Source: Tenacibaculum sp. (GTDB taxonomy: Bacteria; Bacteroidota; Bacteroidia; Flavobacteriales; Flavobacteriaceae). Taken from it: a stretch of DNA of 56,606 nucleotides. The position numbers and the translations under genes are program-made. The notes beneath the pieces were generated by a model, which made no database searches, was not told where the DNA came from, and was given only the letters and a program-made list of their open reading frames with translations. Below, in pieces: positions 27,376 through 27,800 of the stretch; position 1 is the first letter of the stretch; each line of letters begins with the position of its first letter. The stretch covers positions 1 through 56,606 of the forward strand of contig JAHDHE010000005.1 of the NCBI GenBank assembly GCA_020631475.1. The letters are read 5' to 3'.

Positions 27376-27386
27376 CTAAATGCAGT

Positions 27387-27400
27387 AAGCTTTAAGCTAT
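27387..27400. repeat. Left arm of inverted repeat flanking the S23-type gene
   Basis: AAGCTTTAAGCTAT, lying in the groES-S23 gap and running into the first two bases of the S23 start codon. It is the exact reverse complement of 27767-27780. Weaker pairing continues outward for about 11 more bases (GCAT and AG motifs). Confidence 0.75.
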
Positions 27401-27749
27401 GAGGGATTTTAAAAAATATGATATTTGGATATTAAGTCATCAGTTTACACTGAAAGTTTATGATCTAACAAATAATTTTCCTCAAAAAGAAACCTACGGA
27501 ATTACTTCTCAAATTAGAAGAGCTTCAGTTTCAATACCTACTAATATTTCGGAAGGATGTGGTAGAGACAGTGATTCTGAATTCAATAGGTTTCTAACCA
27601 TAGCTTTAGGTTCTGCATCAGAAGTAGAATATCTACTTATACTCTCAAAAGATTTAAGTTTTATTTCAGAAGAAAATTTTAAGCAATTAGCTACTGAAAT
27701 AAATACCATCAAAAGAAAAATTTATACATTAAAACAAAAATTAAAATAG
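27399..27749 (+). CDS. Four-helix-bundle protein, S23 / 23S rRNA intervening-sequence family
   Basis: 116 residues predicted as four helices. Family signatures are clear: FKKYDIWILSHQFTLKVY, QIRRASVSIPTNISEG, EFNRFLTIALGSASEVEYL, and a Lys-rich last helix. Members are encoded in intervening sequences of some 23S rRNA genes and as stand-alone genes in Bacteroidota; related bundles (Avd) act in diversity-generating retroelements. Molecular function is not known, and nucleic-acid binding is suspected. Remarkably it sits between groES and groEL on the same strand, 23 bases after groES, bounded by an inverted repeat. No reverse transcriptase or rRNA is nearby. Confidence 0.9.
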   Translation: MRDFKKYDIWILSHQFTLKVYDLTNNFPQKETYGITSQIRRASVSIPTNISEGCGRDSDSEFNRFLTIALGSASEVEYLLILSKDLSFISEENFKQLATEINTIKRKIYTLKQKLK

Positions 27750-27766
27750 CCTAACGCATTAAGCAT

Positions 27767-27780
27767 ATAGCTTAAAGCTT
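27767..27780. repeat. Right arm of inverted repeat flanking the S23-type gene
   Basis: ATAGCTTAAAGCTT between the S23 stop and the groEL ATG, the exact reverse complement of 27387-27400. Around it are short direct repeats GCATTAAGCAT (27757-27767) and GCATAAAGCAT (27785 on), giving the gap a tandem GCATAAAGC character. Confidence 0.75.
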
Positions 27781-27800
27781 TTGGCATAAAGCATAAAAAA

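Follow-up and report, generated by a model that had tools for sequence, protein, structure and literature searches.

An S23 gene bracketed by inverted heptamer arrays between groES and groEL: possibly a relative of the 23S rRNA intervening sequence that lives in operons

S23 and Avd of diversity-generating retroelements represent one kind of protein, a small four-helix bundle. A precedent for a protein gene bracketed by inverted repeats is provided by REP sequences with RAYT transposase genes, gene-less copies of which occur elsewhere. The closest described system is the intervening sequence (IVS) of Coxiella burnetii 23S rRNA. According to the relevant passages of PMC4990558, its borders are complementary, its S23 ORF is oriented in sense and preceded by tandem GACAGAT heptamers, and the first of these repeats coincides with an RNase III site. 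According to the same passages, the Coxiella IVS protein is probably not made, the function of S23 proteins is not known, and a pentameric ring is known for a Xanthomonas relative only. Heptamers have also been described as simple repeats or STRR (TAACTGA in Beggiatoaceae, PMC4679880; GGGAATC in Xanthomonas and GGGGATT in Nostoc, PMC4692102); the passages concerned call them abundant and unexplained (PMC4692102, PMC4679880), and heptamer satellites are mentioned in part of PMC6749651. In the portions of these texts that were available, S23 and heptamers come together only in PMC4990558, for the Coxiella IVS. No link between S23 genes outside rRNA and heptamer arrays was found in the literature searched, which comprised few of the subscription journals, so that any priority would be provisional.

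Anatomy of the element between groES and groEL

The window, i.e., the whole stretch of 56,606 nucleotides of Tenacibaculum sp. DNA that was analysed, encodes on its + strand groES (27100-27375; PF00166 Cpn10, 115.5 bits), an S23/four helix bundle protein of 116 aa (27399-27749), and groEL (27801-29435; PF00118 Cpn60, 261.5 bits). The middle gene belongs to the S23/IVP family according to both PF05635 (131.7 bits, cut-off 33.8) and TIGR02436 (131.8 bits, cut-off 24), and a profile search returned 2GSC (XCC0516 of Xanthomonas campestris) and 2RLD as its relatives with solved structures. ORFs and these profiles confirm the complete, same-strand S23 gene that the initial annotation had placed between groES and groEL. 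The exact inverted repeat reported there stands as well: AAGCTTTAAGCTAT at 27387-27400 has its reverse complement at 27767-27780, which gives a 14-nt inverted repeat around S23, while in dinucleotide-shuffled spacers the longest inverted match had a mean of 6.4 and a maximum of 12, and 14 was reached in 0/2000 shuffles. In a repeat search the arms lengthen to 26 nt (27375-27400 and 27767-27792, 81% complementary).

The GCATAAAGC-like direct repeats are also present, and correspond to phased 7-nt arrays read directly from the sequence. The left array (27375-27402, + strand) consists of four units (GCTAAAT, GCAGTAA, GCTTTAA, GCTATGA); it opens with the final nucleotide of the groES stop codon, and its last unit contains the S23 start codon. 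The right array (27756-27797, + strand), inverted with respect to the left one, consists of six units (GCATTAA, GCATATA, GCTTAAA, GCTTTTG, GCATAAA, GCATAAA) coinciding with a period-7 run at 27756-27797, and stops 3 nt short of the groEL start, the two arrays filling the groES-groEL junction. With 7-nt units in both spacers and the period-7 run, the element carries an STRR-like heptamer tandem array. This 7-nt phase of the arms, together with three further operon-internal PF05635 genes in the assembly, goes beyond the initial annotation.

In a predicted fold of 27370-27800, 21 left-arm bases pair with the right arm in a stem around S23, a pairing count given without a significance estimate. 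By sequence and prediction, the borders are complementary and able to form a closing stem, as in an IVS; the element itself sits between groES and groEL and not inside an rRNA gene. We consider that there is a somewhat better than even chance that it is a relative of the 23S rRNA IVS that resides in an operon, its arms pairing in the mRNA to form a stem that encloses S23. The element holds no gene besides S23, and neither a reverse transcriptase nor the Y1/HUH-type transposase of REP/RAYT systems is present in it, PF05635 being the sole Pfam match of its gene. A known structured RNA at the locus was rejected, as Rfam gave one chance-level hit and no match near gathering score.

Another short inverted repeat in the window, with AAGAGAA-like words (24012-24066, + strand), lies between the ORFs 22509-24008 and 24077-25303, both on the + strand, with a period-7 run at 23999-24042 and a predicted hairpin of -10.2 kcal/mol. 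It is a candidate ORF-less relative, less well supported than the other parts, and perhaps represents gene-less kin of the S23-type element with a word different from that at groE.

S23 genes and their flanking arrays in other genomes

The assembly containing the window (1.66 Mb, 59% complete) encodes four PF05635 genes. The other three are located in sense at a trpD-trpC-type site, between moeA and moaC, and between two CoA-transferase genes, and by eye their repeat words differ from the groE word. PF05635 matches are present in 49/58 genomes of the genus sample (up to 16 in each), 28/60 of the order sample, and 116/148 of the phylum sample. Such an S23 gene might belong to a retroelement dependent on a reverse transcriptase, in which S23 would act like Avd, and the movement of S23 over evolutionary time would fit this scheme. 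RVT_1 has no match, however, in 11 of the 24 genus genomes with at least five S23 matches or in the window's own assembly (59% complete), the element contains no other gene, and recent copies were not found. The element can do without a reverse transcriptase in its genome; movement dependent on such an enzyme was rejected on the basis of the RVT_1 survey, and we regard the retroelement scheme as very improbable.

Placement within operons was assessed for 113 genus loci (four from the window's assembly, 29 selected automatically, and 80 hand-picked among the matches listed, rows with internal stops being skipped). Both neighbours lie on the S23 strand in 111 of them, the two exceptions being L054, which lies at a contig edge, and L121, where an antisense ORF was falsely called. 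The loci cluster into 38 neighbour pairs, or 36 after removal of these two, and all 36 clean pairs are codirectional, compared to a null of 0.51 (169/331 genes with both neighbours on the same strand in 400 kb of one genome, G040); this corresponds to P about 4e-11, with pairs that are not fully independent. Beyond the genus the preference is weaker: 23/27 loci in the order sample (28 new loci, one of which, L189, was dropped as it has no intact ORF), 20/27 in the phylum sample, and 15/21 annotated plasmid loci with two neighbours (L300, L301, L305, L341, L342, and L345 break the rule). ORFs were called by a crude in-house script, which produced two spurious neighbours in the genus set (L121) and, in the named set, six spurious antisense ORFs overlying groES. 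Sense placement is a strong rule in the genus and a tendency elsewhere.

Besides groE, the sites checked by profiles comprise trpD-trpC, moeA-moaC, CoA transferase, leuC-leuD type (L233), amidase-rimO, hemL-hemE, batA-batB type, and ffh-folD; profiles identify the gene before rimO as an amidase and the hem site as hemL-hemE, and show that thiH follows S23 of L074. The sites labelled fad, gmd, and suf are presumably what these names imply. An S23 gene between guanylate kinase and nucleotidyltransferase genes is listed without comment in a part of PMC5524665. Among the plasmid S23 genes, several (of L299, L303, L343, L345, and L347-L350) lie within gene sets of a defence type according to annotations: cas6-cas4, cas2-cas1, hsdS-hsdR, drmD-mmeI-like, and DUF1156-Swt1 HEPN. 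On a plasmid of Nostoc edaphicum (L301), S23 is located antisense between two ribonucleotide reductase subunit genes, against the sense rule, and is flanked by near-perfect inverted GGGAGTA/TACTCCC arrays.

In S23 flanks the period-7 4-mer match rate amounts to 0.071 in genus (n=113), 0.060 in order (n=27), 0.054 in phylum (n=27), 0.108 in named (relatives of the window S23, n=80), and 0.165 in plasmid loci (n=12), versus 0.021 in 90 control codirectional triples, which were taken from a 400-kb stretch itself containing S23 sites. Period 8 is raised too (0.032 in genus and 0.060 in order loci). A dominant period was detected in 90/113 genus (period 7 in 50, 8 in 25, and 6 in 10), 23/27 order, 21/27 phylum, 63/80 named, and 9/12 plasmid loci, compared to 10/90 controls. 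In 10 of 13 further plasmid or phage loci, belonging to Cyanobacteria, Chloroflexota, a Treponema, and Bernardetia, period 7 is the highest of periods 6-9 at a rate of at least 0.05, one of the 13 (L343) being not scorable because an early in-frame stop misplaced its downstream flank. Heptamer-type repeats are visible by eye at plasmid loci of Azospirillum (L307) and Gemmatirosa (L306), whose flanks are approximate, beginning at match ends and not at ORF ends; clear arrays are absent from the phage locus L351, L345, and L270. By comparison, S23 genes in Bacteroidota and most of the sampled plasmid copies from other phyla carry arrays of period 7, sometimes 8. The initial annotation had expected GCTTTAAGC-type repeats at all S23 genes, which is wrong as to the word, since other S23 lineages use other 7- or 8-nt words; flanks of a similar kind do recur, with period 7, at other S23 loci.

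The two arms of a locus are also related to each other. The upstream arm, compared with the reverse complement of its own downstream arm, scores in the top 5% of other-site scores in 73% of the 113 loci and, taken per site (median), at 26 of the 38 sites. Arm duplex energy has z < -2 in 67% of 63 groE loci and in 50%, 48%, and 67% of sets of 113, 27, and 12 loci, respectively, versus 10% of the 90 controls. These rank and duplex tests are relied upon because, among the controls, flank length confounds the sharing of inverted 6-mers. A generic inverted-repeat score applied to the gaps of G040 picked mostly terminators and long gaps, and was replaced by period counts. When arms are swapped between species at groE, pairing changes from -23.8 to -21.7, and the own arm is better in 41/63 cases; this weakening is only slight and counts against the preferred reading of an IVS relative closed by its arms.

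In many bacterial genomes no long simple repeat is commoner than the heptamer, and slippage has been proposed as its source (PMC4679880). The arrays could be ordinary slippage repeats in loosely constrained operon gaps, with S23 as an ordinary small operon gene residing there by chance; in agreement, period 7 is raised also in S23-free gaps and in the control triples (0.021). In G040, gaps between two + strand genes yield 228 period-7 matches versus 63-83 for most other periods; 106 of the 228 originate from a single gap with GGAATAA repeats, so that the background is lower than it appears. The corresponding counts are 109 in gaps between two - strand genes (period 8: 102), 99 in convergent gaps, and 88 in divergent gaps, the last without a clear excess over the range of 54-92. 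Slippage can neither produce two sides that are inverted copies of one word nor couple words to protein lineages at different sites (see below). It is already hard to hold, and we consider it improbable.

In two regions of G040:C1 (about 950-954 kb and 1148-1162 kb; L144-L163), many codirectional gaps have in common a longer sequence (GTATAATTAATTGC..., with CGTTG-like ends), which by eye resembles a cassette-type repeat array, perhaps an integron.

History at groE and movement between sites

The groES-S23-groEL arrangement is present in 65 of 80 named relatives of the window S23 (best 80 of 121), and all 63 groE loci with both flanks readable carry 7-spaced GC units in both arms, with a median of four per arm. 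Identities of S23 and GroEL are correlated (Spearman 0.66, Mantel 0/2000, 61 loci), and S23 has a dN/dS of about 0.075 (323/589 pairs with usable dS; pairs not independent); S23 at groE is under purifying selection. Within the genus, a close S23 match (at least 76%) occurs in 3/57 other genomes, in each case at groE (L072, L076, and L082). The groES-groEL gap contains an intact S23 gene in 0/26 readable relatives, of which 12 have short gaps (12-52 bp). Among the others, G005 retains an internally deleted S23, L006, L014, and L015 have clear ORF-less inverted GC arrays, and a few of the remainder have decayed or other arrays. One order-level relative (L033) shows an AAAGACA/AAAGATA heptamer array in this gap, i.e., a different word.

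The prevalence of the arrangement at groE, the correlation with GroEL, and the rarity in the genus together show that the groE element is old in the family, mostly vertically inherited, and in the genus often lost or reduced. Its presence is sporadic, as in an IVS (0/26 readable gaps, 4/58 genus genomes by close match, and 65/80 named loci, which were selected for the window S23). An ancestral element with no empty sites had been named as evidence against mobility, and only the first half of this holds: the insertion goes back far in the family, but empty and reduced sites exist.

The claim that gene and flanks moved as a unit fares differently for recent and for older times. In 157 sampled within-genome S23 pairs at different sites, protein identity nowhere exceeds 59%, i.e., near-identical copies in one genome, as for an IS or MITE, were not encountered in this sample. 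Recent transposition at groE was rejected on account of this and of vertical inheritance, and, given the lack of recent copies, active mobility is hypothetical. Purifying selection without recent spread suggests that the S23 protein does something, either to the benefit of the host or in maintaining the operon that carries it.

Older movement is supported by words shared between unrelated sites. For pairs of sites with unrelated neighbours and S23 proteins at least 50% identical (n=20), flank-word similarity is 0.183 versus 0.058 for the rest, and 0/5000 site permutations reach the observed similarity. When every pair of loci at unrelated sites is taken, similarity of the protein and of the word are uncorrelated (Spearman 0.01), so that the association shows up among close relatives only. 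Ten named loci with S23 identities of 55-63% (from Runella, Emticicia, Telluribacter, and Persicitalea, among others) show the GC-type word again at a site of leuC-leuD type, confirmed by profiles at L233 alone, and in 9/10 both arms hold 7-spaced GC units. At other sites, L266 and L271 have GC units in both arms, and L270 does not. The persistence of the GC word across orders suggests that S23 may recognize its word; shared descent of the flanks alone could yield the word-protein link without such recognition.

A comparison at rimO supplies an empty site. In G037, an S23 element with GAGAAAG-like words is located between an amidase gene and rimO, whereas the same genes are 45-58 bp apart and array-free in G001, G002, G007, G010, G012, G013, and G014. 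Longer gaps before rimO (1161, 484, and 201 bp according to the ORF caller) are found in G003, G005, and G017, in which the amidase is present. Insertion of S23 in the G037 line is the simplest reading, with filled and empty sites too diverged to place exact insertion ends or a target duplication. In G006 and G009 the same place (L393 and L397) is occupied by a short S23-free array of GC type, the word of which differs from that of the G037 element, as if the rimO site had been reused. In a further comparison the upstream gene differs in most relatives, and one comparable empty site is available (G006, 56 bp). A word shared at unrelated sites and the presence of an empty site indicate that gene and repeats travelled together.

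Gene-less arrays can be counted through the GCYNTARGCYNTARGC pattern, which occurs 41 times in 20/58 genomes versus four times for the reversed control. Thirty loci gave 23 entries, several of which are seemingly one site in different genomes, and one of which (L326) has a gap of zero; no S23 lies within about 1.5 kb of 20 of the 23 loci examined, and the S23-free loci outside ORFs are all located between codirectional ORFs (17/17, own ORF caller). Genomes with a groE S23 (four) contain on average 1.75 GC-type arrays versus 0.33 in the others (P about 0.007), from hand-keyed counts that include ORF-internal hits.

Together with purifying selection and the long vertical residence at groE, these codirectional S23-free arrays and their higher frequency in the four groE-S23 genomes are what would be expected if S23 were a resident post-transcriptional regulator, the arrays its operators, and movement incidental. 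A ring would then bind the tandem words of the message that encodes it and, acting in trans, the ORF-less arrays at other operon junctions, for which a TRAP-like scheme provides a model. The enrichment nevertheless depends on a single genome (P about 0.09 once G052 is removed), and arrays are present also in genomes for which no close relative of the window S23 was among the matches listed. Furthermore, the arms are inverted, whereas a single-strand operator would be better served by direct repeats, and the affected operons lack a common function. A regulator of this kind is rather unlikely in our judgment.

An IVS-like element in operon mRNA and its described relatives

Under the preferred reading of an IVS relative inside an operon, pairing of the arms in the polycistronic mRNA would enclose the S23 coding region by a stem like that of the IVS. 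A double-strand nuclease such as RNase III could then cut the S23 segment free of the two chaperonin messages; such release would make the insertion tolerable and explain its sense orientation. The S23 ring, a homopentamer in the relative with solved structure, might in addition bind the tandem words in single-stranded RNA or DNA, although this step is less secure. Speculatively, as in a pentamer of the Xanthomonas type, each subunit might take one short word, which would account for a fixed spacing whatever the word. The anatomy is general, wider than the initial annotation held, and at groE it is older and more settled.

A bolder proposal may be offered tentatively: S23 proteins might be the missing partners of bacterial heptamer repeats, i.e., ring proteins that recognize a lineage-specific 7-nt word in single-stranded RNA or DNA and are encoded by tiny elements within operon mRNAs. 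The 23S rRNA IVS would be a special case, and STRR-type arrays would be gene-less offspring or operators. One anatomy may join two puzzles, the function of S23 genes and the origin of bacterial heptamer repeats, and the tracking of protein lineage by the word makes both testable together. If each S23 binds its word and the S23 segment is cut from operon mRNAs, an RNA-processing element has been overlooked in core operons of many bacteria (groE, trp, leu, CoA transferase, and mo-cofactor), and slippage does not fully account for heptamer arrays.

Among the described systems, REP/RAYT likewise combines a bracketed protein gene with gene-less copies elsewhere, but S23 is a four-helix bundle without a transposase domain, and its flanks are tandem heptamers, not REP hairpins. 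Avd of diversity-generating retroelements is a related protein, but no reverse transcriptase accompanies the S23 element. STRR heptamers, as far as the available passages describe them, have in common with the window element tandem 7-nt intergenic units, sometimes as inverted pairs and often between codirectional genes; here they bracket an S23 gene, whereas S23 was not found in the available text of PMC4692102 and PMC4679880. The Coxiella IVS, in the part of its description considered here, shares the sense S23 ORF, complementary borders capable of forming a stem, heptamers beside the ORF, and patchy presence. It differs in that the window element is located in a protein-coding operon, has arrays on both sides, and uses another word, and excision by RNase III would be carried over to it by analogy. 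The element may represent a further form of the IVS kind, and perhaps something larger.
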